From the NCBI GenBank assembly GCA_937948985.1, contig CALFAK010000029.1, forward strand, positions 1-49,780: DNA of 49,780 nucleotides, in the 5' to 3' direction. A program made the translations under genes and the position numbers. This document shows, one piece after another, positions 22,727 to 44,361 of this stretch (within the stretch, counting starts at the first letter, position 1; each line of letters opens with the position of its first letter). This DNA is from an uncultured Neomegalonema sp. (GTDB taxonomy: Bacteria > Pseudomonadota > Alphaproteobacteria > Rhodobacterales > Rhodobacteraceae). The notes beneath the pieces are model-generated. The model worked only from the letters and a program-made list of their open reading frames with translations, did not search any database and was not told the DNA's origin.

Positions 22727-22729
22727 ATT

Positions 22730-22768: not shown

Positions 22769-22847
22769 CGTAGTGCAATCGATTGTCAGCCATCGTATGC
22801 CTAAGGCATCCTCCGCCGGAATGAATTTGTGGAATGGAGCACATCCG

Positions 22848-25280
22848 ATGAAATCGCAAACACGTGTTGTTGTAATAGGTGGCGGTATCGCCGGATGTTC
22901 AACGCTTTACCACCTGACCCAAGAGGGTTGGACCGATGTTGTCCTCGTCGAACGTAACGAGCTGACCTCCGGCACGACCTGGCACTCGGCGGCGCAGGTG
23001 ACGAATTTCGGCATGAACCAGACGATGGTGGGCCTGAAAACCCATTCGATCAATCTGTATAAAGAGCTGCGCGACGATCCTGATTACCCCGTCAACTACC
23101 ACCACGGCGACGGTGGCATCCGGCTGGCCAATACGGAGGCGCAGATGGAGGGCTATCGGCATTTCTCCTCGATGGCGCGCGGAATGGATGTTGAGTTTGA
23201 GGTGATTGACGCCCAAGAATGCGCGCGCCGTCACCCGCTGATCTCGACTGATAACTTGGTCGGCGGGTTGTGGGATGGCAATGACGGCGACATTGATCCC
23301 GCACAGCTGTGCCAAGCGCTCGCGCGGCGGGCGCGTAAAGCCGGTGCGGAGGTTTATCGCAACACGCCCGTAACGGGCCTGACCCAACACAAAGACCACT
23401 CTTGGACCGTCCACACCGACAAGGGCGATATCGCCTGTGAGATCGTCGTCAACGCTTGCGGGTATCGTGTGAACGAGGTCGGCGCGATGATGGGCGTCCA
23501 ACACCCCGTCACCTCGATGGAGCACCAGTATTTCGTCACCGAGGAAATCCCCGCAATTGTCGAGGCTGGTCACCGGATGCCGCTGCTGCGTTGTCCGATC
23601 AGCGACTATTACAGCCGTCAGGAGAAGAACGGCCTGTTGGTCGGGTTCTACGAGCAAGACTGCAAGACATGGGGCATGGACGGGATTGATCCGCATTTCG
23701 TCAACGCCCTGTGTCCGGATGATCTCGACCGTATCACCGACGTTCTGGAGGGCGCGTTCGCCCGAATGCCCGCGCTGACTGAAGTTGGCATCACCACCGT
23801 CATCAACGGCCCGATCACCTACACCATCGACGGCGCGCCCCTCGTCGGACCCATCCCCGGCAAGCGCAATGCGTACTGCATCATCGGGTTGCGCGCGGGG
23901 CTGGGCGAGGGTGGCGGCCACGGCTGGCTGCTTGCGCAACAGATCGTGCATGGCGAGGCGTGCTACGACACATGGTGCATCGACCCCCGCCGCTTTACCG
24001 GTCACGCCAATGTCGAGTTGACCGCGCTCAAAGCCATTGAAGACTACCAAAACGAATTCCGCTTCCACTTCCCCAATGAACACCGCCCTGTCGGACGCAA
24101 CGCCAAGACAACCCCGCTGACTCCGATTATGGCCGCAGAGGGGGCAGAGTTCACTGTGGTGAACGGCTGGGAGCGCGTCGAGTTCTTCAAACCAACCCCT
24201 GATTTTCACGTCACCCACGGTTTCAAATTCGATGAGAGTTTCGACATCGTTGCCGCCGAGGTCGCCGCCGTACAAAACGCCGTCGGCCTGTGCGAGGTCA
24301 ACGGCTTCAACCGCTTCGAGATTACCAGCGCGGATGCCCAATCCTTCCTCGACCGCATGGTCTGTGGCCGTCTGCCCCGCAAGGAGGGGCGCGTGGGCCT
24401 CACGTACCTGCTCAACCACCACGGAATGTTGAAAGCCGAAGCGACCATCGCCAATATCCCCGCTTCAGATCGCGGCCCTGCGCGCATTTGGTACGGCTCT
24501 GCGGCGGCGGCGGAGTTCCATGATATGGACTGGTTGACGCAGAATATCGGCGCGGATGAAGATGTCTCGATCCGCTCTCTGACGAATGACCAAACCATTC
24601 TGGTGCTGGCCGGACCTAAGGCCCGCGCTGTCCTCAGCGCAGTAAGTCGCGATGATTGGTCAAAAGCCGCCTTCCCGTGGCTCTCAGTGCGCGAATGTTT
24701 CATCGGCTATGCGCCCGCAACGGTGATGGGCGTCAGCTTCTCAGGCGAGTTGGCGTATGAAATCCATATCCCCAACGCCTCCCTCTACGCTGCATATATG
24801 GCCTTGCGCGAGGCGGGCAAGGCTCACGGCTTGCGCCTTTTCGGTGCCCATGCGGTTGAATCGATGCGGATGGAGAAGGGGTACCTGCATTGGAAAGCCG
24901 ATATTCTCACCGAATTCGACCCGTTCGAGACGGGCCTCGACCGCTTTGTGAAGATGGACAAGCCGGACTTCATCGGCAAGGCCGCGCTTGCGGAGAGGCA
25001 GGGCAAGGGGCTGACCAAGCGTTTCGTTTCACTGGTCCTCGATAGTAAAACGGCTGCTGCACATGGCGGTGCATCGGTGATGATCGGCGATAAGGTTGTC
25101 GGCACAGTCACTTCAGGCGACTGGGGTCACCGCGTCGCGCAAAACCTCGCCTATGCCTTTGTCGACCCGTCGCTCGCAGAAGGCGCAACCCTTACCATCG
25201 ACGTGTTGGGTGAACATGTCCCCGCAAAAATCATCCCCGCCGGACCCTACGATCCGGCAATGGAGCTGGTGCGGAGTTAA
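22848..25280 (+). CDS. dimethylglycine/sarcosine-dehydrogenase-like FAD oxidoreductase with GcvT domains
   Basis: An 810-residue flavoprotein. The DAO domain has the FAD motif GGGIAG (residues 11-16) and TTWHSAAQ with His46, the position of covalent FAD attachment in dimethylglycine and sarcosine dehydrogenases. A middle FAO domain and a C-terminal GcvT pair (about 420-800) follow, which would transfer the one-carbon unit to tetrahydrofolate. The reaction is probably oxidative demethylation of dimethylglycine, sarcosine or a similar N-methyl amino acid. The ATG at 22848 has GGAG 8 bases upstream and is preferred over a start at 22773. Its tail overlaps the convergent HAD gene by 4 bases. Confidence 0.87.
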   Translation: MKSQTRVVVIGGGIAGCSTLYHLTQEGWTDVVLVERNELTSGTTWHSAAQVTNFGMNQTMVGLKTHSINLYKELRDDPDYPVNYHHGDGGIRLANTEAQMEGYRHFSSMARGMDVEFEVIDAQECARRHPLISTDNLVGGLWDGNDGDIDPAQLCQALARRARKAGAEVYRNTPVTGLTQHKDHSWTVHTDKGDIACEIVVNACGYRVNEVGAMMGVQHPVTSMEHQYFVTEEIPAIVEAGHRMPLLRCPISDYYSRQEKNGLLVGFYEQDCKTWGMDGIDPHFVNALCPDDLDRITDVLEGAFARMPALTEVGITTVINGPITYTIDGAPLVGPIPGKRNAYCIIGLRAGLGEGGGHGWLLAQQIVHGEACYDTWCIDPRRFTGHANVELTALKAIEDYQNEFRFHFPNEHRPVGRNAKTTPLTPIMAAEGAEFTVVNGWERVEFFKPTPDFHVTHGFKFDESFDIVAAEVAAVQNAVGLCEVNGFNRFEITSADAQSFLDRMVCGRLPRKEGRVGLTYLLNHHGMLKAEATIANIPASDRGPARIWYGSAAAAEFHDMDWLTQNIGADEDVSIRSLTNDQTILVLAGPKARAVLSAVSRDDWSKAAFPWLSVRECFIGYAPATVMGVSFSGELAYEIHIPNASLYAAYMALREAGKAHGLRLFGAHAVESMRMEKGYLHWKADILTEFDPFETGLDRFVKMDKPDFIGKAALAERQGKGLTKRFVSLVLDSKTAAAHGGASVMIGDKVVGTVTSGDWGHRVAQNLAYAFVDPSLAEGATLTIDVLGEHVPAKIIPAGPYDPAMELVRS

Positions 25281-26173
25281 TGCCCCCGCACAACTGAACC
25301 CGGCACAATGCCCGATCGCGCGATGTATGTCTGCACATCGCGCCCGGCGAACAGACCATAATTCTCCAACAGGATCGTTTTGATGCCATAGGCCGCACCG
25401 CCCAGTACGTCTGTGTGCAGCGTATCCCCAACCAGCACGCTGCGCGATGGCATAATCGGACCAAGGTGATGTGCGACGATGTCAAAGATGTTTCCGAACG
25501 GCTTTCCATAGAATGCCAGCGCACACCCCGTCCGCCGCGTCAGATCATGCGCGTAATAGCCAGGTTCCAAGCTCAGCCCGGTTTCACGCGGGGCGACGAT
25601 ATCGGGATTGCCGACAAGCACGGGGCGGGGGCGTTGGCTGAGGGCGCGGGACAACAGATCTTGCCGCGCATCCGTCCATTCCCCGCTGCCGAGCAGCACA
25701 AAACCCCGCGCCGCATCGTACGACGCAGCATCGTCACGTAATGCAAAGCAATCGATACCAAGCTCTTCAATCTGCGATTGCGCCGTCGCCATCACACCCC
25801 AGCGCATAGGGGGATGTCCCTCTAATCCGATTTTCAGCGCGTCACGACTCGTCACGATCTCCCCGGCTGTGAAATCAAAGCCGAGCCGATGGAATTTTTG
25901 CAAACTCACCGCCGTGGGAACGCTTGCGCTGTTGCTGACGATTACGACGCGCTTGCCCCGCGCACGCAATGAGGCGATCAGGTCAACTGCACCCGGAATC
26001 GCAGTCTCGCCGACATTCAGCACGCCGAACGCATCGAGCATCACCAGATCATACGGTTCCAGCGCAGCGCTAAGGTGGTCAAATCTTTCCGGTTCGCCTT
26101 CATGGCGCGCACGGGGCAGGGCATCGCGAACAGCTTCGTATTGATCGAAAGCCCAATCAACATCATTGGCCAT
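25277..26173 (-). CDS. HAD-superfamily class IIA phosphatase-like protein
   Basis: A 298-residue HAD hydrolase of the NagD-like class IIA group. Motif I is DAFGVLN with nucleophile Asp47. Position +2 is Phe instead of the usual Asp, a change seen in the subgroup with DxWGV-type motifs. Motif II is VSNSAS (Ser80) and motif IV is VGDTLHTDVLGGAAYGI. It probably hydrolyses a phosphate ester, but the altered motif I leaves activity open. The gene is the last of the PhnCDE-type transporter operon, one base after the second permease gene. It is not a phosphonatase of the PhnX type. Confidence 0.83.
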   Translation of the reverse strand: MANDVDWAFDQYEAVRDALPRARHEGEPERFDHLSAALEPYDLVMLDAFGVLNVGETAIPGAVDLIASLRARGKRVVIVSNSASVPTAVSLQKFHRLGFDFTAGEIVTSRDALKIGLEGHPPMRWGVMATAQSQIEELGIDCFALRDDAASYDAARGFVLLGSGEWTDARQDLLSRALSQRPRPVLVGNPDIVAPRETGLSLEPGYYAHDLTRRTGCALAFYGKPFGNIFDIVAHHLGPIMPSRSVLVGDTLHTDVLGGAAYGIKTILLENYGLFAGRDVQTYIARSGIVPGSVVRGH

Positions 26174-26174
26174 G

Positions 26175-26993
26175 TCAGATGATGGCCCCGCGCACTTTGG
26201 CGGAAATCCATTCGCTGATAATCACCGTTCCGAAGATGACGATCAGGATCAGTGTGACTTGCGGCCATGCCAACGTGTCCAATGACCCCTTCAACTGCAA
26301 ACCGATACCGCCAGCGCCGACCAGACCCAGCACGGTGGATTCGCGGATGTTGATGTCCCAGCGGAACACGGCAATTCCGGCGAAAGCGGGCATAATCTGA
26401 GGCACGATCCCGTATGCCATCACCTGCCACCGGCTTGCTCCGGTTGCGGTGATCGCTTCGACTTGTTTTGTGTCGATTTCTTCAATCGCCTCGTATAGCA
26501 GCTTTGCGCAGAAACCTATGGAGCGGATCGCGATGGCAATCATACCTGCGAAAACGCCCGGCCCTAAAATCGCCACCAGCAACAGCGCCCAGATAAGCGA
26601 GTTGATCGACCGGGTCGAAACGATGATCAGCAGTGCGATGGGGCGGATTAACAGCGCGCTTGGTGTGGTGTTGCGCGCGGCCAGAAATGCCACCGGAACC
26701 GCCATCAGTAACGCGAAAAATGTACCCAACGTGGCGATGTTCAGCGTATCCCAAAGCGGCTCCCACAGCTTTTCCATATAGGACCAGCGCGGCGGAATCG
26801 CTCTGCCGCCAATGTCCGCCGCAATGCGCGGGGCGTCCCAGACGAAAAACCACGTCGTCGCATCCGAGATTTGCTTCCAGCACCACAGAAAGATGATCGT
26901 GCCGATCATCCAGGCACCCCAGCGGGTGAACTGACTCTTACGGTCGCGCAGCATCCAGGTTTTTGTGCCGTCTCCTGTCAAAATCTGAGGCAT
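26175..26993 (-). CDS. phnE: PhnE-type ABC transporter permease (second)
   Basis: A 272-residue inner-membrane permease of the phosphonate-type ABC family, with about six helices and the cytoplasmic EAA-like loop EAITATGASRWQVMAYGIVPQIMP split around its ATP-binding-protein contact site. The ending with [13 protein letters not shown] followed by LILIVIFGTVIISEWIS is typical of PhnE. It is paired with the adjacent permease, whose stop touches its start with no gap. Heterodimeric PhnE pairs are common in this importer family. The substrate is not known from context. Confidence 0.88.
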   Translation of the reverse strand: MPQILTGDGTKTWMLRDRKSQFTRWGAWMIGTIIFLWCWKQISDATTWFFVWDAPRIAADIGGRAIPPRWSYMEKLWEPLWDTLNIATLGTFFALLMAVPVAFLAARNTTPSALLIRPIALLIIVSTRSINSLIWALLLVAILGPGVFAGMIAIAIRSIGFCAKLLYEAIEEIDTKQVEAITATGASRWQVMAYGIVPQIMPAFAGIAVFRWDINIRESTVLGLVGAGGIGLQLKGSLDTLAWPQVTLILIVIFGTVIISEWISAKVRGAII

Positions 26994-27806
26994 CTATTGA
27001 ACCCTCGCGCGGATGATACCTGACAAGTATTCCAGCACCATGACCACAGCGATGATGATGAGCAGGATTGCCGCCGCAGTATCGAATTCGTATCGGTCAA
27101 AGGCCGTGTTCAATGTCGCACCGATCCCGCCCGCACCTACCAAGCCGAGGATGGCGGATTCGCGGAAATTGATGTCGAGACGATACATCGACAAGCCGAT
27201 CAGGCGGGGCATGACTTGCGGCTGTATTCCATAGTTGATCCACTGGCTCCAAGACGCGCCGGTTGCCTTTACAGCCTCCGCCTGACTACGATCCAGGTCT
27301 TCGATATCCTCGGCGAGCAGTTTGGCGAGGAAGCCGATGGAGGCGAAGCTGAGGGTCAGAAATCCGGCAAGGGGGCCGAAACCGAAGATCGCGACCAGCA
27401 AAATCGCAACGATGATCTCGTTTAGCGCACGGCTGAGCGCGACAATCCCGCGACAGATCAGGTAGATCGGCAGAGGGGCAATGTTGCGCGCGGCACCGAG
27501 GGCCACGGGCACGGACAGGACGATTCCGACCACCGTTGCGGCAATAGACATAATCGCGCTTTCGATCATGCCTTCCTTGATATCAGCGGCACGTGAACTG
27601 AAGTCCGGGCTGGAAAACGCGACGACGAATTTCCAGCCGCGTTCCAGCCCCTCGTAAACCCGTGACCAGTTCACATCGAGCGACGACAGAGCCGCGATAA
27701 AGTAAACCACTGCGCCGATAAGCAGCGCCCAACGTAACCACGCGCGTTTGATAAACGGCGGTTTGCGCCATTCGCGTCCGACACGTTCTGACAGCGCGAC
27801 GCTCAC
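26994..27806 (-). CDS. phnE: PhnE-type ABC transporter permease (first)
   Basis: A 270-residue inner-membrane permease of the same family as the following gene. The EAA-like loop is [20 protein letters not shown], and [15 protein letters not shown] lies before the last helices. I chose the GTG start at 27806, which overlaps the stop of phnC as GTGA. The longer frame from 27854 would add 16 mostly charged residues from inside phnC. This overlap points to translational coupling with the ATP-binding subunit. Confidence 0.88.
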
Positions 27807-28591
27807 GTTTCTGCCTCGTCTTCCTCTTCGATCTTCTCGATGGTCTCTTTCCAATCTTCCTCGCCATAGATGCGGGTCAGGACTTCTTCGGTCAGACCTT
27901 CGGGTGGCCCGTCAAACTGGACAACGCCCTTGGTGAGACCGATCACCCGCTGAACGAACATCTGCGCGAGTTTCACGTCGTGAATGTTGATGATCGCCGC
28001 CAAATCGCGCTCGCGACATAATTCGCAAATCAGACGCATGATCTGACGGGAGGTTTTCGGGTCCAGTGACGCGGTTGGTTCGTCCACCAGCAAAAGGGCG
28101 GGGTCTTGGATCAGTGCCCGCGCGATGCCCACACGCTGACGCTGTCCGCCAGAAAGCTCATCCGCGCGCTTATCGGCCATTTCGAGCAAGCCGACACGGT
28201 CGAGCAGGCGATAAGCCTCGTCCACATCGGTTTGCGGATATTTGCGAAAATAACTGCGCCAGAAACCGACATAGCCAAGGCGACCGGAGAGGACATTTTC
28301 CATCACGGTCAGGCGTTCGACCAGCGCGTATTCCTGAAAGATCATTCCCATACGGCGACGCATCTTACGCAGGCCGTGGGCGCCGAGTTTGGTGATGTTC
28401 TGCCCGTCGAGAATAACGTTGCCCGATGTCGGCTCCACCAAGCGGTTGATGCAGCGGATGAGGGTGGATTTACCCGCACCGGACGGTCCGATGAGTGCGA
28501 GAACCTGCCCGCCGGGCACTTCAAGCGTTACATCGTTGAGGGCTTTGTCGCCCGTTTTATAGGTTTTGGAGAGTTGTTGAAGATGCAGCAT
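27803..28591 (-). CDS. phnC: PhnC-type ABC transporter ATP-binding protein
   Basis: A 262-residue ABC ATPase. Walker A is GPSGAGKS at residues 35-42, the Q-loop is in [14 protein letters not shown] near 84, the signature LSGGQ is at 146-150, and Walker B LLLVDEP at 167-172 with the following D-loop. The Q-loop region and length match PhnC of phosphonate-type importers. The C-terminus has an acidic tail (EEEDEAET). It powers uptake with the two PhnE permeases and the binding protein encoded just upstream. Confidence 0.92.
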
Positions 28592-28613
28592 GACTCACTT
28601 TCAAGATAAGGGA

Positions 28614-28631
28614 GGCGGGTCATTGCCCGCC
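28614..28631. terminator. GC-rich hairpin after phnD
   Basis: GGCGGG and CCCGCC form a 6-base-pair stem with a 6-base loop in the 51-base gap between the phnD stop and phnC start, on the leftward transcript. No U-tract follows. As with the hairpin after dctP, it may protect the abundant binding-protein mRNA or partly stop transcription before the membrane subunits. Confidence 0.5.
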
Positions 28632-28642
28632 CCCGCAGTGGG

Positions 28643-29614
28643 TCATTTACAGGCGTATGATACGCCGTTTGCCGTGTCGATTTTACGGATTACGTCCCAG
28701 AACTGCTGATAGTTCATGTTCAGGAACTGGCCTTCATTCGATTTCTCAAACTCTTCCTGGAGTTTAGTGCCTTCCCATTCAAAGCTGAAGAAGGCGTGCT
28801 TGATTTGCGCGGCAAGGCGCGGGTCAAGGTTGTAGACAGTGCCGAAGCCTGTCGTCGGGAAGGTTTGCGATTTGTAGATCGTTTTCACCTGATCCGCCGT
28901 GATCACATCACGCGACAGCATCCGGCGCAGGACCGAGTTTGCGATCGAGGCGGCAGGGTAATCTTTGTTCGCCACACCCAAAATCGAGTTGTCGTGCTTG
29001 CCGGAATAAACCGCTTCAAAGTCACGCTCAGGGATCATCTCATAATCGGCTTTCAGAATCGCCGATGGTGCTTTGAAGCCTGAGTTGGATGTTGGTGAAG
29101 TGAATGCGAGCTTGCCGCCCTTGATGTCTTCGACCTTTTCGATGCCGCTGCCCGGATAGGTGATGATTTCCATCTCATATCCGAAGTTGCCGTCTTTCGA
29201 CGCCATGATGGTAAAAGGATTAAAGCCCGCGCAGTTAACGGCCAACGGGTTCGATCCGGTGTTGAAGCCCGAAATGTGCAAACGGCCCGAACGCATCGCT
29301 TCGATCTGTGCGGCGTTGGATTGGACCGGGAAGAACACGACTTTTTTGCCCGTCACCTCGGACAAGTGATCCAGAAATTCAGACCAAACCGTCTTATAAA
29401 CCGCCGGATCCTCAACAGGTGTATAGGCGAAAACCAGCGTATCCGGGTCGAGCCATTCATCGGGATTCGCCGGGGCATCGGCGACAAGATCACCATTCCA
29501 ATCGCAATAGCGCTCGTCCAGATCACCGCGCGGGCAGTCTTTTGCCGATGCGGGCGCGGTGCCGAATGCCAGCGCGACAGCGGCCGCGCTCAGAAGTTTC
29601 GTGTAATGTCTCAT
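28643..29614 (-). CDS. phnD: PhnD-type periplasmic substrate-binding protein
   Basis: A 323-residue phosphate/phosphite/phosphonate-type binding protein. A signal peptide (about residues 1-24, ending ASA) is followed by a short segment with two Cys and an acidic DWNGDLVAD stretch before the SBP domain opens with LVFAYTPVEDPAVY. Other family features are LHISGFNTGSNPLAVNCAG and KLAFTSPTSNSGFKAPSA. The ligand is uncertain: the window holds no C-P lyase, phosphonatase or phosphite dehydrogenase gene. A strong Shine-Dalgarno (GGGAGG) precedes the ATG. The gene is divergent from an SDR gene. Confidence 0.87.
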   Translation of the reverse strand: MRHYTKLLSAAAVALAFGTAPASAKDCPRGDLDERYCDWNGDLVADAPANPDEWLDPDTLVFAYTPVEDPAVYKTVWSEFLDHLSEVTGKKVVFFPVQSNAAQIEAMRSGRLHISGFNTGSNPLAVNCAGFNPFTIMASKDGNFGYEMEIITYPGSGIEKVEDIKGGKLAFTSPTSNSGFKAPSAILKADYEMIPERDFEAVYSGKHDNSILGVANKDYPAASIANSVLRRMLSRDVITADQVKTIYKSQTFPTTGFGTVYNLDPRLAAQIKHAFFSFEWEGTKLQEEFEKSNEGQFLNMNYQQFWDVIRKIDTANGVSYACK

Positions 29615-30717: not shown

Positions 30718-31752
30718 TTATGCAAAAGCCGGGATGACCTTCTCGCAGAACAGCTCCAGCGACCGTTTTTGCTCCTTCAGGCCAAGGCCCATGCTGGCGT
30801 AGTAGATGAATTCATCCACGCCCAGTGCCTCATAACGTTTGAGTTTTTCGATCACCTGATCGGGTGTGCCGAACATCAGGTTTTCGGTCAGCATGTCCGC
30901 ATCAAATTCGTCACGGTTTTCCAAATCTTCCAACGCGATTTGTTTCGGGAAGCCGTTCTCCACATCGCCGAGGTTTTTGAACAGGTTTTCAAATTGTCCC
31001 AAGGCACGACGGATTGCTTGAACAGGGACCATCTTGTCATCGGGGCTGTCATAAAGCGCGGTGTGGCGCATCATTGCGAAGATGGGACGCTTTGCTCCGG
31101 GATTTTTCGCCATCGCATCATCAAGGCGCTGTTTATACGCTTCGGCCTCCGCAAACGGACGGGTGAAGGGCCATGACATGATGTTGCAGCCATGTTCAAC
31201 CGCGAAATCAAAGGATACGGGTGCGCGGGCCGCGACCCAGACGGGGATTTCCTTTTGTACGGGTTTGGGCACGGATGTTGAGGTCGGGAAGTTCCAGTAT
31301 TCGCCCTCATGCTCGTAATCGCCTGCCCATAGCGCGCGCACTGCGGGCAGGCTTTCCTGCATGTATTTCCAACCGTCAGACTGCTTCACACCGGGGGCCA
31401 TGCGGTCAAATTCGCGCTGGTATGCACCGGAGCCGATGCCGAACTCAAGGCGGCCATTGGTGATAAGGTCGGTGAATGCCGCCTCACCCGCCAAGCGGAT
31501 CGGATGCCAGTAGGGTGCGGCGACCACTGCCGGACCAAGGCGGACATTCTCGGTATGCGCGGCCCACCATGTCAGGATTTGAAACGGGTTCGGTGCGATT
31601 GTCATTTCCAGCGCGTGGTGCTCGGCGGCCCAAACGATGTTGAACCCGCCCTTATCGGCCATTTTGACCATATCGAGCGTGTGGTTTGCGACTTCATCCA
31701 TCGACAGTGTATCGTCGACCCGTTCCAGGTTGACTGCGAGTTGGAACTTCAT
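30718..31752 (-). CDS. LLM-class flavin-dependent monooxygenase (RutA-like in context)
   Basis: A 344-residue bacterial-luciferase-like monooxygenase. The TIM-barrel core shows WAAEHHALEM near 41-50, RLGPAVVAAPYWHPIRLA and GRLEFGIGSGAYQREFD, typical of the family's FMNH2-binding barrel. It would use reduced FMN supplied by the flavin reductase encoded two genes upstream to oxygenate, and perhaps open, a small ring or cleave a bond. The gene is the last of a five-gene leftward operon, 93 bases after the AA_synth gene. Family membership is clear, the substrate is not. Confidence 0.87.
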   Translation of the reverse strand: MKFQLAVNLERVDDTLSMDEVANHTLDMVKMADKGGFNIVWAAEHHALEMTIAPNPFQILTWWAAHTENVRLGPAVVAAPYWHPIRLAGEAAFTDLITNGRLEFGIGSGAYQREFDRMAPGVKQSDGWKYMQESLPAVRALWAGDYEHEGEYWNFPTSTSVPKPVQKEIPVWVAARAPVSFDFAVEHGCNIMSWPFTRPFAEAEAYKQRLDDAMAKNPGAKRPIFAMMRHTALYDSPDDKMVPVQAIRRALGQFENLFKNLGDVENGFPKQIALEDLENRDEFDADMLTENLMFGTPDQVIEKLKRYEALGVDEFIYYASMGLGLKEQKRSLELFCEKVIPAFA

Positions 31753-31845
31753 GGTTGATTCCTTCAGATTGGCGTTTTTATTTGCCGCCGATCCCTCTAC
31801 CTTGGGCCGACGTGGTTGGTCGTTTTGTTCGTGTCGGAAAGCCTG

Positions 31846-32448
31846 TCACACGGCGGCGGGGTTCTCAACATCATGGCCCAGCATTTTCAAATCCGCATAG
31901 CGATCGCCGATCCGGTGATGCGGGCGCCCGCCCGTGGCGCCGCCCAGTGCGAGGACAATTTCATCCGCTGCCGGGGCGTCGTAGATTGAGAATTGCACCG
32001 TCAGATAGTGCGACCGCCGCCCCGCGTCGTGCTTGTCCATCAGCGGAATTTGCACCTGCGTATTCGCCGGACCGCGCGTGTTGGTGAAGCCCAGATAGCT
32101 TTTTGCCCCAACCGCCTCGCGATAGAAATTCCCGAAGCGCAGCGTGTGGATCAAGGCGGAGGCGTGTTCGATTTCCGCATCACCACCGCAAATCGCCGCC
32201 TTGCCATAAGCCTCAATCGCGTCGCCCGACCCGGCCAGCGTGATCATACGGGCGGTGAGCAGTTCGCCCAGTACCGGACCCATCGCCTGAATCTCCGGCA
32301 TCAGATCCTCCACAAAACCGCGTCCGTGCCACGGGTTTTTGATGACGGCGGCGACGGCGATCATACGCAGGGGCGGGCTGGCAGAACGGCCCCCCTCAAT
32401 CAGGATGTCTTCGTCGAATGTGACGAGTTTGCGGATTTGCGGTTTCAT
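31846..32448 (-). CDS. amino acid synthesis family protein (PF06684, DUF1185)
   Basis: A 200-residue protein matching the AA_synth family (formerly DUF1185). Visible segments include MIAVAAVIKNPWHGRGFVEDL, broken by variable residues, then IEAYGKAAICGGDAEIEHASALIHTL and GGATGGRPHHRIGDRYADL in the C-terminal part. As I recall, the solved structure of this family is a variant of the Bacillus chorismate mutase fold, and its biochemical role is not established. Its position between a flavin reductase and a flavin monooxygenase gene suggests a catabolic step. It starts 3 bases after the flavin reductase stop. Confidence 0.83.
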   Translation of the reverse strand: MKPQIRKLVTFDEDILIEGGRSASPPLRMIAVAAVIKNPWHGRGFVEDLMPEIQAMGPVLGELLTARMITLAGSGDAIEAYGKAAICGGDAEIEHASALIHTLRFGNFYREAVGAKSYLGFTNTRGPANTQVQIPLMDKHDAGRRSHYLTVQFSIYDAPAADEIVLALGGATGGRPHHRIGDRYADLKMLGHDVENPAAV

Positions 32449-32451
32449 ATC

Positions 32452-33387
32452 TTATCCCTGATTCCCGATCTTGCGAACGCGGCCCGTATCCTCGTCGCCC
32501 TCATAAATGCCAAAGCTGCCATGCGCGTATTCGCCGCTGTAGCGCTGTAACATGCTGCGCTGAGCCGCATCGGTCACGCGCTCCCACGGCATGTTGTTGA
32601 TGTCGAAAAACGCCCGTCCCGCTGGCGCATCACCACTGACAATGCCGTGGTAATAGATGCCATTCGCCCCAGATGCGCGGTTGCGGTAAACAGAATAAAG
32701 AAAGTCAATCTCAGCCCTCATACCGCACGCGGCGAGGGCGGCGATCAGGGTGTCGAGGCCTTCGCCTTTCTCGCCGAATTGAGCATTCGGAACTGTAAGC
32801 GCCGCTGTTTGAGGATCGATATCGAGTAAGATTTCTGTGCCGCGCGCAAGGATTGCCCCGATCACGGATTTTGTATCGCGCGCCACCGCTTCGACGAGAG
32901 GCTGGTCGAGGCCGAGGGAGAAGTAATTTCCCCTGAAATAGCCGAGAGGATTGCCTGCGCGGGTATCGAAATCTGTGACATGGCCGATCAGGATGACATG
33001 GTCTCCCGCATCAACACATTGCTCGCGTGTACAGGAAAACCACGCGAGGGACGCATCAATCAGCGGTACGGCATCGGGGCCGGGCTTCCATGCCGCATGC
33101 TCGAATTTGTCGGGTTGGCGCGAAGCGAAAAGGCCGGAGATGGCTTTTTGATCCTCGCTGAGGATATTCACCGCGAAATGCGGGGCGTTCTCGAAAATTT
33201 TAAGGCTGGCGGCCGATTTGGCGATGCAGACCAGCAACAAAGGCGGGTTCAGCGATACGGATGTGAAAGAATTGGCCGTGAATCCGCGCGGGGTGCCGTT
33301 TTCTTCGCGTGTGGTGACAACAGTTACGCCCGTGGCGAAAGCGCCAAAGGCATTGCGCAGTGCTTGTGTGTCAAAGGCGCCCGCCAC
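32452..33387 (-). CDS. flavin reductase with C-terminal extension
   Basis: A 311-residue protein. Residues 1-165 are a flavin-reductase-like domain (RutF/HpaC type), with FATGVTVVTTRE, GFTANSFTSVSLNPPLLLVC and the ending GNPLGYFRGNYFSLG. It would reduce FMN for the LLM monooxygenase of the operon. Residues about 170-311 are an extra domain that HpaC and RutF lack. Its strand pattern and a weak GxxxxxLxxxIxxxxxG stretch recall a degenerate Nudix fold without the Nudix box, a guess only. The start is GTG. The upstream alpha/beta hydrolase gene ends 16 bases before it. Confidence 0.85.
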   Translation of the reverse strand: MAGAFDTQALRNAFGAFATGVTVVTTREENGTPRGFTANSFTSVSLNPPLLLVCIAKSAASLKIFENAPHFAVNILSEDQKAISGLFASRQPDKFEHAAWKPGPDAVPLIDASLAWFSCTREQCVDAGDHVILIGHVTDFDTRAGNPLGYFRGNYFSLGLDQPLVEAVARDTKSVIGAILARGTEILLDIDPQTAALTVPNAQFGEKGEGLDTLIAALAACGMRAEIDFLYSVYRNRASGANGIYYHGIVSGDAPAGRAFFDINNMPWERVTDAAQRSMLQRYSGEYAHGSFGIYEGDEDTGRVRKIGNQG

Positions 33388-33403
33388 ACGCCGTCTCCCT
33401 CGA

Positions 33404-34219
33404 TTAAGTTTGTTTCCCTACCTCTCTAAGAGGTTGGGGAGAGAGATGTTTAGACAGAAACGGCAATAGAACGTTATTTACCGCCGCCGGGTCTTCAATC
33501 ATAGTCATATGACGCAGTCCCGGCAAGATAGCGACTTCTGATCTTGGAATCTCACTCGCAATTGCGTGCGCCATTTCCGGATTGTTTCCGAAATCATCCT
33601 CGCCCGTAATAATGAGGCTGGGGCAGGCGATAGGTGGGGATGGTGCGATAATCTCGTCCATATTACCCGCAAGAACGCGGTAATTACCGGTGTAAAGCGC
33701 CGGATCATTGTTCAGAATGCATGTTCTGAAGCGGGCCATTGCATCGGGTGATTTTTTACGGAATTCCGGGGTAAACCATCTTTCCAGAGCGTCTTCGATC
33801 GTCGCCTCAGGGCCGTTTTCAGATGCCTGTTGCACCCGCAAGTCGATTCTCGCTTGCGCCTCCGGCGAGCGTTTGTGCGGTGAATTGAGGATGGCAAGGG
33901 CGGTTACGCGATTTGGGTAGTCTTGCGCAAAGCGTCTCGCGATCATGCCGCCCATCGAAAAACCCACAACTGCAGATTCCAGCACGTCTGCATTTTCCAA
34001 GACCGCCGCCAATTGTTGGGCGAACACGCTCAGGCTGGGCGGGGTGGGTGAGGGACCGCTTTTGCCGTGGCCGTAAAGATCGTAGGTCAGCACGCGGTAA
34101 CGCGCGCTCAATTCGCCAATCTGGCTCAGCCACACATCTCTCGTCAGACCCAAACCGTGGATTAATGCAATGACAGGTGCCGTACACGGCCCGTACCATT
34201 GAAAAGACGTATTACTCAC
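33404..34219 (-). CDS. alpha/beta hydrolase (RutD-like in context)
   Basis: A 271-residue alpha/beta hydrolase. The oxyanion segment is HGLGL (residues 21-25), the nucleophile elbow GFSMGG has Ser88, the acid is probably Asp209 in TGEDDFG, and His237 is in GLRHMT. Size and motifs match small carboxylester, enol-lactone or carbamate hydrolases. The start is GTG and overlaps the RidA stop by one base (TAGTG). In the Rut operon a similar hydrolase (RutD) speeds aminoacrylate breakdown. The same role here is an inference. Confidence 0.87.
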   Translation of the reverse strand: MSNTSFQWYGPCTAPVIALIHGLGLTRDVWLSQIGELSARYRVLTYDLYGHGKSGPSPTPPSLSVFAQQLAAVLENADVLESAVVGFSMGGMIARRFAQDYPNRVTALAILNSPHKRSPEAQARIDLRVQQASENGPEATIEDALERWFTPEFRKKSPDAMARFRTCILNNDPALYTGNYRVLAGNMDEIIAPSPPIACPSLIITGEDDFGNNPEMAHAIASEIPRSEVAILPGLRHMTMIEDPAAVNNVLLPFLSKHLSPQPLREVGKQT

Positions 34220-34617
34220 TAAGCGCTCACTTCTGGTTTATAGGCGATGACTTCGATTTCAATTCTCACGTCTACAAGTAATTCGTTGACAATCGCTGAC
34301 CGTGCGGGTGGTTCATTTGGAAAATACTCACCATAAACCGCGTTGAATCCCGGAAAATCGTTGCGATCACGCAACCATATCATTGATTTCACCACATCGG
34401 ATAACTCACATCCAGCGAGTGCCAATGTGTTATGAATATCGCCGAGTACCGCATGTGTTTGATCTTCAATGTTACCGTCGGTCATGACCGCCCCGTCTTT
34501 CATGGGGATTTGTCCAGTTAAATATACAAAATCTCCTGCTCGTACCGCGCGAGAAAGCGACAGAGTTCTACCGTTTATAACAATCGGACCTCCAATAACT
34601 TGTTTCTTATCGTACAT
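34219..34617 (-). CDS. RidA-family deaminase (RutC-like in context)
   Basis: A 132-residue YjgF/YER057c/UK114 protein. It has the usual trimer-forming fold features, with VYLTGQIPM near 31-39 and the conserved Arg106 in ARSAIV, needed for imine/enamine deamination, plus Glu122 near the end. RidA proteins hydrolyse reactive enamines such as 2-aminoacrylate, and RutC acts on 3-aminoacrylate. It is the first gene of the five-gene leftward operon, preceded by an AT-rich promoter region. It implies that the pathway makes an enamine or imine. Confidence 0.88.
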   Translation of the reverse strand: MYDKKQVIGGPIVINGRTLSLSRAVRAGDFVYLTGQIPMKDGAVMTDGNIEDQTHAVLGDIHNTLALAGCELSDVVKSMIWLRDRNDFPGFNAVYGEYFPNEPPARSAIVNELLVDVRIEIEVIAYKPEVSA

Positions 34618-34758: not shown

Positions 34759-35601
34759 TCAAAAACCTATCAGCGCGATGGTGACCCTGTCTTCGTATTG
34801 ACCCGCATAGGCCGGCGGGAGTTCGCCGATGGTGAATGACACGCGGGCGCTGTCGATACCATTGTTTCCGGTTGGGGTGCCGAGCGATACCGTACCGCTG
34901 CCATCCAATGCGACGGCACGCCCTGCGACACTTGCGCGATAAGGGATGGGGGAGAGGGCGGGGTTGTCGGTGTGGGTCAGGTTTCCGCCGTTGTCGGAGC
35001 GTACGGTGAGTGAAAGCGGTGCGTTGGATTGGTAGAGAAAATCACTGGACACGGTTTTACCTGTGACCGCCTCGTTGAAATCCAAACTGATCACGCGCGC
35101 CTGATCCGTGGCGAGGCGGGTTGCGAAGCGGACTTGCGCGACGATTTCGGCATCATCAGAAACCGTACCATCAGTTTTCAGCCTGAACTGCGCACGATAG
35201 GGGCCGGGGGGAACAAAGCGTTCGGGCGGTAGTTCTCCCAGTGAGACCGATAGTTGTGATTGTTCGACCAGCAACATGCGGGCTTGGTTGGTGAGATGGA
35301 AGATATCACCGACATTTTGAACCAAGGGGTTGTTGATGCCTTCTATCGGCAGCGCGTCGCCAATGCCTTGCAGTGACGCGTTTCCGGTCAGCGGTTCGAT
35401 TGATATTGTGGCGCCGCCGCAGGTTGTTGCATCACCGCGTGCTGTTAAGTGCAGGTTTACCGCTTCGCGTGCGAGTGAATCGGGTGCGTAGGTGATGGTG
35501 CCGGTTGCGCGCATTACCAGGTCGCAGGAAAGTGCTTGCGTGGCCGATATCAGCAGCGCAACAGCGGCCCCGGCGATTTTTATGCGTGTGGCCATTTTCA
35601 T
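34759..35601 (-). CDS. Csu-like pilus tip subunit (spore coat U domain)
   Basis: A 280-residue secreted protein with a signal peptide (about residues 1-25). It consists of two similar halves: each ends in a GELPP motif followed by a Gly-Tyr segment (GELPPERFVPPGPYRAQF and GELPPAYAGQYEDRVTIAL). The second half shares SDNGG and the C-terminal YAGxYxDxVTIA strand with the pilin of the operon. The two-domain layout and last position in the operon fit a tip adhesin like CsuE: an N-terminal binding domain and a C-terminal pilin domain. It overlaps the usher gene as ATGA. Receptor unknown. Confidence 0.82.
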   Translation of the reverse strand: MKMATRIKIAGAAVALLISATQALSCDLVMRATGTITYAPDSLAREAVNLHLTARGDATTCGGATISIEPLTGNASLQGIGDALPIEGINNPLVQNVGDIFHLTNQARMLLVEQSQLSVSLGELPPERFVPPGPYRAQFRLKTDGTVSDDAEIVAQVRFATRLATDQARVISLDFNEAVTGKTVSSDFLYQSNAPLSLTVRSDNGGNLTHTDNPALSPIPYRASVAGRAVALDGSGTVSLGTPTGNNGIDSARVSFTIGELPPAYAGQYEDRVTIALIGF

Positions 35602-38066
35602 TCCAATACCAGAACGCCAAGATCGGCGAAGGCTTCGTTATCGTCTTGCACCACAAACTTTGCACGCAGCTTATCCAACTGCAAAACATACGCGCCCGGT
35701 GCCAGCCCCGTCGCGGCAAAGCGGCCCGTGCGGTTGGTGAAGATGTCTGTTGGTTCTTGTCCGCCATCGGAGCGGATCAGTGTTCCGGTTTTAAGGGCAA
35801 TCGGCTCCGCGTTTTGATCCTGTGCAATGCCGCGTACCGAGCGGTATGCGTCGCTGCCCACGGTTACGGCAAAGCCCGATAATGCGCCGCTACGTACGGC
35901 ATAGCTGCCCGGTCCGATATCGTAGCCGAGTGGCGCATCTTCGATTGTGACCGCATATTCACCGATGCCATAACGGCGCCCGACGGGCACGAGAGCCGGA
36001 CCAAAAATGTCGCTGCGCGCTTGCGGTGTTTGTTGTCGTGTCGCACTGACCTTCAAGGTCGATTCTGACAGGGTTTCGTGCGGTGATACCATAACAAAGC
36101 CGCCGGAGACTCTTCGCCCGATCCCGAAATGTCCATCGGCGAAAGCGATGCCAGAGCCGAAGCGTAAGGTGCCGACGGTGGCGCGTGCATCGTCATTGGT
36201 ACCATGACTCACCGTACCGGAGACCAAAAACCGATTGCCGGTATATCCGGCGTCACCGGATAAAATCACACCGCCCTCGTCATGCTCTGCGCGCAGGCGG
36301 TATTGATAGTCATCAATGGGCTTGTCGCCTCGTCTTTCGACCTCGACAACGCTGCGCCTGTCGGTCGTACTGTGAGACGCGCGGAAACGGTGATTATTCC
36401 AGAACGGGAAGGAGAGGGATGCGAATAGGGCGGTTTCATCGCTTTCGGTCTCGTGAAAATTTTGTTGAAACAGCAGTGAGCCTACGAATTGCTGAAAACG
36501 GTGAGAGAGGCCGATGCTGAGACGGGCTTCGCGTTCAACCTCTTTCACATACCCCCCCGCCAGTGTGAGGGTGGTCCGCTCATTCAACGGAAGTCGATAA
36601 GTGGCATTGGCGCTGATACGGTCCTCGCGCACCGCGCTGTCAGGTTGCTCAAGGGTGCGGAAATCCTCGCCTGTGAAAGCGAGGCGGAAGTCGAATTGAT
36701 GCCCCGGCGCAATCAGAGAATCGAGATCCGCCGTGTAGAACGCTTGCATCGCAAAGCTGGTCTCGCGTGTTTCTGTGTCGCCGGAAAACGCCGCCGCGCC
36801 ATCAATTTGCAGCACGCCAAACGGTACGGCAGCCACAAGATTCGCACCGAAGCTCGCGTAACGGTCGCGGCCAGACGCAAATCCGCCCAGCGTGAGGCCC
36901 GCTGTGATGCCCCGCCGGTAGTAACCAACTCCTGCCGGATCTTGCGTTTGCCATTCGATACCATCGGCAACATCAGGCTGAATGTATCCGGCAGACAGGC
37001 CGAATTCTGACAGTCCGGGTGCCAGCAGGTCTTCATGCGATGAGAAATTGAAGGTGTCGATTTCGCGTCGCCCCAAGGCGTCTTCCACTGTGATAACAAC
37101 CTGATTTCCGGTGCCGACAAATGGAATATCGCTGAGGTCCACCCGGCCCGGTCCGGCGGTGAAGCGTTTGACGACGATATCGTTCACCGTGATTTCTACC
37201 AGACCCGCGCGATCAAGTATTAAGCTGCGGTCGCTTAGCGCGCGTGTTGTGCGGTCCGGGTTGATTTCGTCATACCGACGCTCCACTGATAAGCCAAGCA
37301 GGGTCGGGTTGCCCGATAATGGTGGCTGGTCGAGAAAAACATCGACCGACGAATAACGCACGGCGTTGGTGATGTCGTCTTTGAACAGGGTAAGGCGGTC
37401 ACGCTGCAGGGACGGTTGATCCGCATCCGCCAGTAAATCAAGCGATCCTGATGCGTTGAGATAGACACCGTTATAGCCGCCGATATTGGCGAAACTGTTG
37501 AAAAAAACGGATGCGGCATCAGAGTTCGTATCTTCCAAGGCGCTGCCCAGAACCAAGTCGGCGTCCAGGCCGATGGCCAGGTTTGCAGGCTGCGTCAGCT
37601 CGTACCCGTTATAGCGGGTGCCGGAAGCCAGATTCAGGGTTTGTGTGGCGCGTGCGGTGTCGGCTATTTCGACTTTGATGGCGAGGGCCTGGCGGTCGAA
37701 TGAGACGGTCAGGCCGGAGCCTTCAACCCCCTCCAAAGGCACGATCCCCGTATCGAGGTCACGTAATGCTGTGAGCAGGTTATCGTCGATTTCCGTCGCC
37801 AAAACGTCGGCCAATCTGTGCGCATCTATGCCGAGAAGCGCGTCTGTAGTGCTGCGCACCGGAACCGGGCCGATAACCCGATCATCGAGCCGAACGGGCA
37901 GAACGATCTCAAAAACCTTTGGTTTTTCAGGGCGTTTTTCGACGGTTTTAGCGGTGGCGGGTTCGCTCCTGACAGGGGACGGGGTGCCACTGATTTGGCC
38001 GCTGACAGGATGAGGTGAATACAGCATCGCCCCCAACACGCAAATGAGGAGGCGATTGTATCTCAC
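35598..38066 (-). CDS. archaic chaperone-usher pilus outer-membrane usher
   Basis: An 822-residue outer-membrane usher that threads subunits through the outer membrane. A signal peptide (about 1-24) and a Pro/Lys-rich linker precede the N-terminal domain. The FimD/CsuD-like barrel follows, with SSVDVFLDQPPLSGNPTLLGLSVERR broken over its early strands, the plug-region GLVEITVNDIVVKRFTAGPG and FSSHEDLLAPGLSEFGLSAGY. The C-terminal domain has GRFAATGLAPGAYVLQL. Overlaps of 4 bases on both sides couple it to the chaperone and tip genes. Confidence 0.87.
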   Translation of the reverse strand: MRYNRLLICVLGAMLYSPHPVSGQISGTPSPVRSEPATAKTVEKRPEKPKVFEIVLPVRLDDRVIGPVPVRSTTDALLGIDAHRLADVLATEIDDNLLTALRDLDTGIVPLEGVEGSGLTVSFDRQALAIKVEIADTARATQTLNLASGTRYNGYELTQPANLAIGLDADLVLGSALEDTNSDAASVFFNSFANIGGYNGVYLNASGSLDLLADADQPSLQRDRLTLFKDDITNAVRYSSVDVFLDQPPLSGNPTLLGLSVERRYDEINPDRTTRALSDRSLILDRAGLVEITVNDIVVKRFTAGPGRVDLSDIPFVGTGNQVVITVEDALGRREIDTFNFSSHEDLLAPGLSEFGLSAGYIQPDVADGIEWQTQDPAGVGYYRRGITAGLTLGGFASGRDRYASFGANLVAAVPFGVLQIDGAAAFSGDTETRETSFAMQAFYTADLDSLIAPGHQFDFRLAFTGEDFRTLEQPDSAVREDRISANATYRLPLNERTTLTLAGGYVKEVEREARLSIGLSHRFQQFVGSLLFQQNFHETESDETALFASLSFPFWNNHRFRASHSTTDRRSVVEVERRGDKPIDDYQYRLRAEHDEGGVILSGDAGYTGNRFLVSGTVSHGTNDDARATVGTLRFGSGIAFADGHFGIGRRVSGGFVMVSPHETLSESTLKVSATRQQTPQARSDIFGPALVPVGRRYGIGEYAVTIEDAPLGYDIGPGSYAVRSGALSGFAVTVGSDAYRSVRGIAQDQNAEPIALKTGTLIRSDGGQEPTDIFTNRTGRFAATGLAPGAYVLQLDKLRAKFVVQDDNEAFADLGVLVLE

Positions 38067-38755
38067 TGACCCGGTGTGGCAGGCGTGACGATGAAGCGGC
38101 GTGTTGATAGCGGCGGAATGATCGGGTTCTCAACCGTACGCAGCGATGATGGTGTCACAGTCGTGAGTTTGGCGGACACGCCGGGGATATCAGCCAGACC
38201 TTGCGGGCCGAGAACGGCGTGGCGTGTGCCTGAGTTCTCGACGATCAATTCATAACCGCCCGCGCGTTGACTGACGCTAAGCACTGAAAGCCCCGGCGTG
38301 GTGTCAGGGGGGGCGATGTAGACAGCGACGCCGAATTCGTAGACCACTTGCAGACCGACGCCGGATTTGACCTCCAACGGCACCTCCGCCACGCGCATTA
38401 CATATGCGCGGCTTTTATCGGTGAAAGGTTCGCCGAGATATTGGAACTGGAATGTTTGAGCGGAACCGACCGGGATGATTGTTTGGGGCGGGAAGAACAC
38501 GAAATCATCATCGGCGGGTTCATAGCGGTTCTGACCGTTTTCATCGACAAAGCGGCGCTCGAAACGGATTTCTATCGGGACGGAAGTTTGCTCGGTATTG
38601 CGCACGGTCACGCGCCCTGCCGCACCGACGCCGGGAGCCTCCAAAACCATACGCATCGGAGAGACTTCAAACGCCGTTGCGGTGGATAGCGGCCATGAAA
38701 TCGCAAGCGCGGTTAAAAAACCGCGCAAGAAACCGGAAACCGTCATGAAGGTCAC
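38063..38755 (-). CDS. periplasmic pilus chaperone (PapD-like, archaic type)
   Basis: A 230-residue periplasmic chaperone with a signal peptide (about residues 1-28). Two immunoglobulin-like domains are visible: FEVSPMRMVLEAPG and TVRNTEQTSVPIEIRF in the first, with FVFFPPQTIIPVGSAQTFQF as the G1-strand region, and GGYELIVENSGTRHAVL in the second. It would hold pilus subunits by donor-strand complementation until the usher takes them. The FFPPQ motif is typical of archaic-system chaperones. The gene lies 27 bases after the pilin gene and overlaps the usher gene. Confidence 0.87.
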   Translation of the reverse strand: MTFMTVSGFLRGFLTALAISWPLSTATAFEVSPMRMVLEAPGVGAAGRVTVRNTEQTSVPIEIRFERRFVDENGQNRYEPADDDFVFFPPQTIIPVGSAQTFQFQYLGEPFTDKSRAYVMRVAEVPLEVKSGVGLQVVYEFGVAVYIAPPDTTPGLSVLSVSQRAGGYELIVENSGTRHAVLGPQGLADIPGVSAKLTTVTPSSLRTVENPIIPPLSTRRFIVTPATPGQ

Positions 38756-38782
38756 CTGATAAATAAATCGGGAAAAACGGGG

Positions 38783-39403
38783 TCAGTTCGCCGTAATGGC
38801 GATGGTGACCTTATCCGCGTAATCGCCTGCATATGCTGTTGTGTGAGGCACCGTGCCGCCCGTTGAGAAACTTTCAACGCCGGCGAGATTCAACACGCCG
38901 TTTGCCCGGAAGCTGACCGAGCCAACCTCACCATCGAGAAAAGCGACATTCACGTGGTCCGTCACGACGGGTGACACCAATTGCTGATACGCGAAGCTGA
39001 GACCGTTATCGCCACTATGTGCCATTTGATAAGCGATCTTGTCGCCCGTCCCGCCCGTTGTCCCTTCACGGAACAGGTAGCCACCATTGTCCGAGGTCAC
39101 CGTGCGTGAAAAGCCGCCGACGAGATTGCAGGTATAGGAAAGGGGGACATCTGTGCCGACGCCGGGCGCCTCCGCCTCAACAAATGTGGTTGTCGGGACG
39201 ACGCCGAGATCGCCGAAATCCACGTCAAATGACGTGGTCGTGCTGGCGTTTGTCACGCTGTAAACGCCGCAAATTCCGGTCACTTCAGCGGTAAGGTTGA
39301 AATCCATTTGAGCGCCGGGTATTGCCGGAACAACAGGCGTAACTCCTTCGGCGAGCGCTGAAGTCGTGAATGCGATACCAAGCAGGATAGGCGTTAATCT
39401 CAT
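38783..39403 (-). CDS. Csu-like pilin, spore coat U domain protein
   Basis: A 206-residue secreted protein with a signal peptide (about residues 1-18, ending ALA). Cys45 and Cys92 probably form a disulfide. The SDNGGYLFREG stretch and the C-terminal YAGDYADKVTIAI strand are hallmarks of the spore coat U domain used by archaic pilins. It is the first gene of the four-gene operon and presumably the main shaft subunit. Unlike the Acinetobacter csu operon there is a single small subunit gene. The 179-base AT-rich region upstream (39404-39582) should hold the promoter. Confidence 0.85.
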   Translation of the reverse strand: MRLTPILLGIAFTTSALAEGVTPVVPAIPGAQMDFNLTAEVTGICGVYSVTNASTTTSFDVDFGDLGVVPTTTFVEAEAPGVGTDVPLSYTCNLVGGFSRTVTSDNGGYLFREGTTGGTGDKIAYQMAHSGDNGLSFAYQQLVSPVVTDHVNVAFLDGEVGSVSFRANGVLNLAGVESFSTGGTVPHTTAYAGDYADKVTIAITAN

Positions 39404-39582: not shown

Positions 39583-40158
39583 CTAAGCAGTGGTAGCGGG
39601 GAGGAGAATAACTCTATCCGCGATACGCTGCGCCTCCGCAGGTTCGTGTGTCACCAGGATCAAGCGTATGGGTCTTGCTTCCAGCAAAGCCGATAGCAAA
39701 TCCTGCATCCGTGCGGAGACTTCATGGTCGAGGGAGGTGAAGGGTTCGTCGAGGAGGAGCGTGTCAGGTTGTGCGGCGAAGGCGCGGGCGAGGCTGATGC
39801 GGCGGGCTTGGCCGAGCGATAATGTGCCGGGGAAGCGATCTGCGGTATGGGGCAGCTCGACGGCGCTGAGAAGGGTGTCGGCCTCCGGGGCGGTGCATCC
39901 GGTGGCGATGGTGAGGTTATCGCGGACGCTGCGCCAGGGCAGGAGGGTTGGTTCCTGGAACGCGACGGCGATGCGGCCCGCGCCTGTGACTTGGCCCTCA
40001 AAATCGGCATCAAGGCCAGCGATGATGCGGAGCAGGGTGGATTTGCCGATACCGGATGGTCCGGTCAGGGCGACGCGTTCGCGGTCGGCGACCTCCAGCG
40101 TGAAATCGCGCAGGATGGTGGTGTCACCATAGGCTTTGCGGGTGACGTTAACGCGCAT
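39583..40158 (-). CDS. ABC transporter ATP-binding protein, NitT/TauT type
   Basis: A 191-residue ABC ATPase. Walker A GPSGIGKS is near residues 34-41, and the Q-loop is in VAFQEPTLLPWRSVRDNL, typical of nitrate/sulfonate-type importers. The signature is LSLGQ (Leu in place of Gly at the third position), and Walker B LLLDEPF follows. It is shorter than usual (about 230-260) for lack of a C-terminal extension. The ATG at 40158 starts 11 bases inside the permease gene and gives a normal N-terminus. A longer frame from 40269 is low-complexity and rejected. Last gene of the pqq-linked operon. Confidence 0.85.
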   Translation of the reverse strand: MRVNVTRKAYGDTTILRDFTLEVADRERVALTGPSGIGKSTLLRIIAGLDADFEGQVTGAGRIAVAFQEPTLLPWRSVRDNLTIATGCTAPEADTLLSAVELPHTADRFPGTLSLGQARRISLARAFAAQPDTLLLDEPFTSLDHEVSARMQDLLSALLEARPIRLILVTHEPAEAQRIADRVILLPATTA

Positions 40159-44328: not shown

Positions 44329-44361
44329 GTTCACGCTTCCCCGCAAGCCCGTTGGTTGCAT

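Follow-up and report, generated by a model that had tools for sequence, protein, structure and literature searches.

A RidA-bearing five-gene run in an uncultured Neomegalonema as a candidate variant of the Tgn-type flavin oxygenase module

What compound would be degraded by the products of five adjacent minus-strand genes at 34617-30718 (coordinates checked on the sequence) of contig CALFAK010000029.1, from the uncultured Neomegalonema sp. assembly GCA_937948985.1 (Alphaproteobacteria, Rhodobacteraceae; 3.4 Mb, 94.67% complete)? The contig, analysed at its full length of 49,780 nucleotides, is referred to below as the window. An initial annotation had framed the run as a Rut-like catabolic operon without RutB. 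Based on homology, gene-set conservation, separation of oxygenase clades and co-occurrence with an aldehyde dehydrogenase (ALDH) encoded elsewhere in the genome, we put roughly even weight on another reading, in which the run would be a RidA-bearing, Tgn-type (trigonelline-type) two-component flavin oxygenase module acting on some other N-heterocyclic or betaine-type compound, and a variant of a known module, not a reduced uracil pathway.

Gene content and likeness to the tgn module

The five families named in the initial annotation are all present, with Pfam scores well over the curated cut-offs. The first gene encodes a RidA-family protein (34219-34617; 132 amino acids; PF01042 Ribonuc_L-PSP, 98 bits), followed by genes for an alpha/beta hydrolase (ABH; 33404-34219; 271 amino acids; PF00561 Abhydrolase_1, 93 bits), a flavin reductase (32452-33387; 311 amino acids; PF01613 Flavin_Reduct, 144 bits over residues 15-158), an AA_synth/DUF1185 protein of the TgnF family (31846-32448; 200 amino acids; PF06684, 234 bits) and a luciferase-like monooxygenase (LLM; 30718-31752; 344 amino acids; PF00296 Bac_luciferase, 190 bits) of a Tgn-like clade termed clade III below. 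The close spacing first described is also borne out: the RidA and ABH genes overlap by one base (34219), and the remaining gaps measure 16, 3 and 93 bases. The RidA gene has a low G+C content (0.449, against 0.574 for the window). A scan for promoters and terminators gave counts close to those of shuffled sequence, none of the five proteins exceeded a curated NCBIfam cut-off among the matches listed, and a literature search returned no publication recognised as describing this operon.

LLM, flavin reductase, ABH and AA_synth form the core of the Tgn-type module, and all four are encoded in the run. Together with the unlinked ALDH they are homologous to a tgn-like locus of Sinorhizobium meliloti (LLM 40.6% identity, reductase 41.9% over 310 residues, that is, full length, ABH 31.9%, AA_synth 68.5%, ALDH 56.1%), and the same five families are shared with the Tgn pathway of Acinetobacter baylyi, whose gene content was reportedly set out by Perchat and co-workers in 2018. 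The window differs from that pathway in that its LLM is about 40% identical to tgn-like LLMs and belongs to a separate clade, that a RidA gene is added while the ALDH is unlinked, and that no GntR regulator, transporter or succinate-semialdehyde dehydrogenase (SSADH) lies beside the run.

Eleven loci from a plasmid collection were opened, seven of which (Rhizobium etli, S. meliloti, Leisingera, Ruegeria, Pantoea, Acinetobacter junii and Acinetobacter baumannii) hold LLMs of the tgn-like clade I. In each of the seven, the genes AA_synth-ABH-reductase-LLM-ALDH form a run and a GntR gene is present, the Leisingera ALDH being unannotated but represented by a 415-residue open reading frame (ORF) in place; SSADH lies alongside in four (R. 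etli, S. meliloti and both Acinetobacter), and NIPSNAP, transporters or a permease accompany some. The two Acinetobacter stretches carried no annotation and their genes were labelled by BLAST; among the NCBIfam matches listed for the Acinetobacter locus there was no trigonelline-specific model. From gene content only, we infer that these seven are tgn loci. A further related arrangement, the clade II locus of Agrobacterium and Azospirillum (L060, L061), shares reductase, ALDH, LLM (49-51%), ABH and AA_synth with the window, but it has CMD and NIPSNAP genes in its run, no RidA there, and a ProXWV transporter.

At the level of single proteins, RidA is 35.8% identical to Escherichia coli RidA and 30.6% to RutC, and its Arg106, invariant in the alignment with both, corresponds to the arginine of the imine- and enamine-hydrolysing active site; the earlier suggestion that RidA clears an enamine would suit such a protein. 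In the ABH, which is 25.6% identical to RutD, a GFSMGG nucleophile motif (GxSxG) and a late histidine (LRHM) can be read, and we propose that it may hydrolyse an N-acyl-enamine or amide in a TgnD-like role. Its C-terminal tail, LSPQPLREVGKQT (33404-33445), overlies an apparent small inverted repeat and may be an inserted repeat element. The reductase, 32.5% identical to RutF (164 residues), carries an extra C-terminal part; its best solved match, 3rh7, spans residues 2-310, and the S. meliloti tgn-like reductase is nearly identical to the 3rh7 chain, deposited as a hypothetical oxidoreductase.

The AlphaFold model of the AA_synth protein (mean predicted local distance difference test score 86.2) matches 3byq (Foldseek E = 6.4e-19) and 2qtp. 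A RidA-like fold was considered for it and rejected: at E <= 0.001 Foldseek gave DUF1185 structures only (three of 486 matches), and no RidA was found among the best 50 of the 486. The protein had been presented as the unknown step of the pathway, a description that stands in part, as its homologue TgnF is tied to trigonelline degradation in A. baylyi while its reaction is still unclear; PMC7913881 names TgnF as a homologue of a DUF1185 protein and describes it as stimulating TgnE-dependent succinic semialdehyde oxidation. The 7-hydroxycoumarin hcd locus of Pseudomonas mandelii also has a DUF1185 protein, HcdD, but there a stimulating effect was sought without success, and the term 'luciferase' is absent from the main text of the paper (PMC7913881). 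A general tie between AA_synth proteins and LLMs was rejected on 30 short AA_synth loci from family searches (flanks of about 1.5 kb), where an LLM lies alongside in two and a reductase with an ABH in one more; around the genome's own second AA_synth (38.9%), the contig stretch that holds it shows no such partner.

Conservation, oxygenase phylogeny and the unlinked dehydrogenase

A scan of genome contigs with 11 aligned LLMs gave 533 relatives among 560 stretches. Only the best 80 relatives were kept, which skews the sample towards near ones; many of its members are single cells, and a few genomes are represented twice. Forty-six loci with at least 6 kb on either side of the LLM are called full loci here, and five partners were counted: RidA, ABH, reductase, AA_synth and ALDH. 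ABH and ALDH each occur in 36 of the full loci, AA_synth in 35, RidA in 28 and reductase in 25; all five partners are found in 18, four in 16, two in 2 and one in 2. Thus 34 of 46 hold four or five partners, a count unchanged under stricter identity limits, and when short contigs are included the figures are 44 of 80 with four or five and 16 with none. The conserved gene set is more than chance, which bears out the grouping first proposed. As for the dehydrogenases that might travel with it, the answer is ALDH, and relatives' loci thereby point to this enzyme, and not to RutB, as the member missing from the run; 51 of the 54 counted ALDH genes lie within 200 nucleotides upstream of the LLM.

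By content, 27 of the 80 loci combine a RidA core with carnitine-like genes and nine have that core without them. Another 13 have AA_synth and ABH with no RidA match, mostly in the arrangement reductase-ALDH-LLM-AA_synth-ABH, and include some RidA-type loci in which RidA went undetected; nine have other content, and the rest are considered below with the contrary evidence. The window's own arrangement is unusual among these relatives: where RidA was counted in a relative's locus (36 cases), it lies on the strand opposite the LLM in all but one (35 of 36), and no full locus (0 of 46) has RidA and AA_synth without ALDH. Pfam assignments also reveal two reductase fusions, one with a class III CoA-transferase (L058, 8031-10151) and one with an ABH (L068, 8342-10096). 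Three genomes, one Pelagibius and two Defluviimonas, have two LLM loci each (L098/L103, L104/L131, L128/L147), one with carnitine-like genes and the other in the reductase-ALDH-LLM-AA_synth-ABH arrangement, which suggests that close LLM paralogues act on different substrates in these organisms. Rhodobacterales and single-cell Alphaproteobacteria account for many of the carriers; cultured ones include Hwanghaeella grinnelliae, Shimia gijangensis, Pseudohalocynthiibacter aestuariivivens, Parasedimentitalea marina (LLM 73% identical to that of the window) and Aminobacter sp. SR38 (74%).

In a FastTree phylogeny of 111 LLMs rooted on RutA, which did not include the characterised A. baylyi TgnB, the window LLM falls outside RutA and also outside clade I, whose 11 of 11 members are monophyletic (support 1.0). 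The Agrobacterium and Azospirillum proteins of clade II group together (1.0), as do the Tgn-like clades I, II and III (0.987). Within clade III, where several deeper nodes are weak (0.45, 0.555, 0.76 and 0.77), the window LLM groups with 13 proteins of uncultured Alphaproteobacteria (AG-series single cells or metagenome-assembled genomes; 0.935), and 11 of these 13 sister-group loci contain RidA, ABH, AA_synth and ALDH, the other two being short contigs. Leaving out five intermediate sequences (L079-L083), 59 conserved columns are common to clades I, II and III, and 39 differ between I and III.

The ALDH absent from the run is encoded on another contig, C130, where it is 79% identical to the Aminobacter protein and has an SSADH (67% to that of S. 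meliloti) about 2 kb away. Across 14 genomes of the genus, the source genome included (LLM E <= 1e-60, ALDH E <= 1e-180), LLM matches occur in seven, but the one in G011 is a clade I protein (40%), which leaves six genomes with the window-type LLM; the ALDH is present in exactly those six, a coincidence of sets with a chance of 1/3003 if the genus mates were independent, which they are not. All five genus mates have their ALDH and LLM genes side by side, with the larger gap, about 1.1 kb, in G005. The ALDH of the source genome is 89-91% identical to four of the mates' copies and 85% to that of G007, whereas the window LLM reaches only 69-71%, the ABH and reductase about 50-55%, RidA 70-73% and AA_synth 78%; this disparity points to replacement or separate acquisition of the five-gene run, with the ALDH retained. 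Three genomes speak against so simple a history: in G004 a window-type AA_synth (79%) lies at a contig end but LLM and ALDH are unmatched, the clade I locus of G011 includes an AA_synth at 77%, and G013, the nearest relative (91% complete), gives no match for either LLM or ALDH under these E limits.

The possibility that the window contig does not belong in its genome bin was rejected on genus-wide matches of two genes located outside the run and described further below. A DAO-GcvT gene is matched at 62% or more in 13 of the 14 genomes, the source genome included (only 37% in G007; up to seven matches per genome), and a radical SAM gene at 69% or more in 13 of 14. The contig looks genuine because both are matched across the genus, at 94% and 97%, respectively, in the nearest genome, G013.

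Proposed mechanism and rival substrates

In the most likely scheme, each catalytic step of which is assigned by homology, the reductase would supply reduced flavin mononucleotide (FMNH2), and the LLM, with FMNH2 and O2, would open a ring beside the nitrogen of an N-heterocyclic, probably N-methylated and betaine-like substrate, yielding, by analogy with TgnB, an N-acyl enamine with an aldehyde group. The ALDH from the other contig would convert the aldehyde to an acid, the ABH would hydrolyse the N-acyl (formamide) bond by analogy with TgnD, RidA would hydrolyse the enamine or imine, releasing an amine together with either a semialdehyde or a keto acid, and AA_synth may help the last step, as TgnF reportedly does with succinic semialdehyde oxidation. 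Ring-opening by TgnA/TgnB is the first step of trigonelline degradation according to PMC8269262. Betaine-type signals count in favour of the scheme as well: ProXWV/OpuAC transporters, a GbdR-like regulator and carnitine-like enzymes are encoded close to relatives of the run, and the window itself has the MTTB and DAO-GcvT genes described below.

Several observations weigh against a Tgn-type module for such a substrate. The run itself contains no substrate transporter and no regulator, and none of the five partners occurs in 8 of the 46 full loci. Among the 80 loci, 13 have the LLM and carnitine-like genes with neither RidA nor the AA_synth-ABH pair, and nine have the LLM and ABH but no RidA, no AA_synth and fewer than two carnitine-like genes. 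In the sister group of the window LLM, only one of 13 loci has a reductase beside the LLM, and the AA_synth of G004 stands without its presumed partners. The comparison also draws on tgn-like loci assigned by content alone. Cleavage of an aromatic ring is an extrapolation, because identity between the window LLM and the tgn-like clade is only about 40% and the two are set apart by the 39 clade-specific columns.

An acyclic quaternary-ammonium substrate is unlikely but deserves to be kept in view. The LLM would oxygenate such a compound, the ALDH would make gamma-butyrobetaine from its aldehyde, and a CoA module would lead on to glycine betaine. At least three of four carnitine-like CoA genes (enoyl-CoA hydratase, HADH, BKACE and acyl-CoA dehydrogenase) are present in 33 of the 80 loci, all 13 sister-group loci carry at least the hydratase and HADH, and the 13 loci just mentioned pair the LLM with the CoA module without RidA or the AA_synth-ABH pair. 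Glycine-betaine-type transporter parts lie beside the carnitine-like module in several single-cell loci. The best NCBIfam matches of the Aminobacter locus (L057) are crotonobetainyl-CoA hydratase (308 bits), L-carnitine dehydrogenase (303) and GbdR (203), although all fall below the curated cut-offs. The source genome has the start of a BKACE gene (66% over 74 residues) at a contig end, beyond which the module may continue, but its HADH matches reach 38% at best. Moreover, the CoA module is absent beside the window run, none was seen beside the genus mates' loci on contigs of limited length, and nine RidA-type loci have none of the four CoA genes.

That the run is the already published homarine (N-methylpicolinate) catabolic operon, or a part of it, appears quite unlikely. 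The abstract of a 2026 paper reportedly names an operon homABCDER in Rhodobacterales, SAR11 and SAR116. Many carriers of the window-type genes are, as noted, Rhodobacterales or single-cell Alphaproteobacteria. PMC13390433 cites work from 2026 in which a conserved pathway for homarine is described, and homarine is called a marine metabolite in PMC8269262. The latter study (Heal 2021) nevertheless argues on steric grounds that TgnAB machinery is unlikely to accept homarine, and reports homarine as less effective than trigonelline for growth of Ruegeria pomeroyi; a later correction lowers the homarine amounts of that study.

Degradation of trigonelline itself by the run is very unlikely. The module type is the same and an SSADH resembling that of S. 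meliloti lies near the genome's own ALDH, but a separate, fully supported clade of tgn-like LLMs exists, a genus mate (G011) carries the clade I version, and clades I and III differ at the columns counted above.

A Rut pyrimidine pathway without RutB, RutE and RutG, which is scarcely credible and already largely refuted, would account for four family-level correspondences with E. coli (LLM, reductase, ABH and Rid protein), but the LLM is only 20.5% identical to RutA over aligned columns (BLASTP E = 0.003 over 176 columns only), the NCBIfam scores lie far below the cut-offs (RutC 58.1 against 169.1 bits, RutD 85.7 against 238.5, RutF 91.3 against 254.75), window-type genes travel with AA_synth and ALDH, and the 94.67% complete genome gives no RutA match at E <= 0.001 and, for RutB, an unconvincing partial match of 40.8 bits against a cut-off of 377.95. 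The Rut frame of the initial annotation is accordingly replaced by the Tgn-type module, while its broader proposal, an oxidative catabolic operon for a compound other than uracil, is probably right; placement of the LLM within RutA together with a rutB gene elsewhere, which it had named as grounds for abandoning that proposal, was not what the tree and the genome gave.

Surroundings of the run and wider meaning

Outside the run, a gene for an MTTB-superfamily methyltransferase (20161-21789, minus strand; PF06253, 372 bits), a LysR regulator gene and the DAO-GcvT gene (22773-25280, plus strand; Pfam DAO and GCV_T; dimethylglycine/sarcosine dehydrogenase type) stand side by side at 20161-25280, likely a betaine/dimethylglycine demethylation locus. 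The DAO-GcvT protein has copies at 70-78% in loci of Tgn-like LLMs (L078, L131 and L147), and the MTTB protein clusters with ORFs of L127, L131 and L147; the Defluviimonas loci L131 and L147, in the reductase-ALDH-LLM-AA_synth-ABH arrangement, carry both genes, whose window relatives lie about 5-9 kb from the run. DAO-GcvT is a possible functional neighbour of the run and MTTB a possible betaine demethylation neighbour. Some members of the MttB superfamily demethylate betaines, and homologues of mtgB are present in marine roseobacters, according to PMC12478193. Taken together, the betaine-type neighbours point to quaternary-ammonium substrates or products, co-location not being proof.

At 25277-29614, genes for an ABC transporter of the PhnCDE type and a binding protein of the phosphonate family are followed by one for a HAD-IIA hydrolase; in related LLM loci the binding protein is unmatched and the hydrolase has one weak match. 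Next to the run, at 34759-39403, is a chaperone-usher-like set named from reading of the sequence, without a profile search, and comprising an 822-residue usher-like protein, a periplasmic chaperone-like protein and two secreted pilin-like proteins. At 39583-44391, a radical SAM/SPASM protein and a TenA/PqqC-family protein, a pair suggestive of pyrroloquinoline quinone synthesis, are encoded close to ABC transporter genes that accompany one for an NMT1/THI5-like binding protein.

On a broader scale, we tentatively propose, at somewhat less than an even chance for the claim as a whole, that a third Tgn-type branch, whose carriers include Rhodobacterales and single-cell marine-type Alphaproteobacteria as well as further bacteria, attacks by ring or chain opening a nitrogen compound of the betaine type for which no such degradation is known, that RidA finishes the sequence, that the product enters a carnitine-like CoA pathway in many carriers, and that the reductase has been fused separately to a hydrolase and to a CoA-transferase. 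Should the homarine operon consist of the same gene families, the module would already be known. If the proposal is right, one subfamily of the unexplained AA_synth proteins would be tied to a kind of chemistry, in a branch whose oxygenase had 533 relatives in one genome scan, and a single enzyme module would have diversified onto several betaine-like nutrients.

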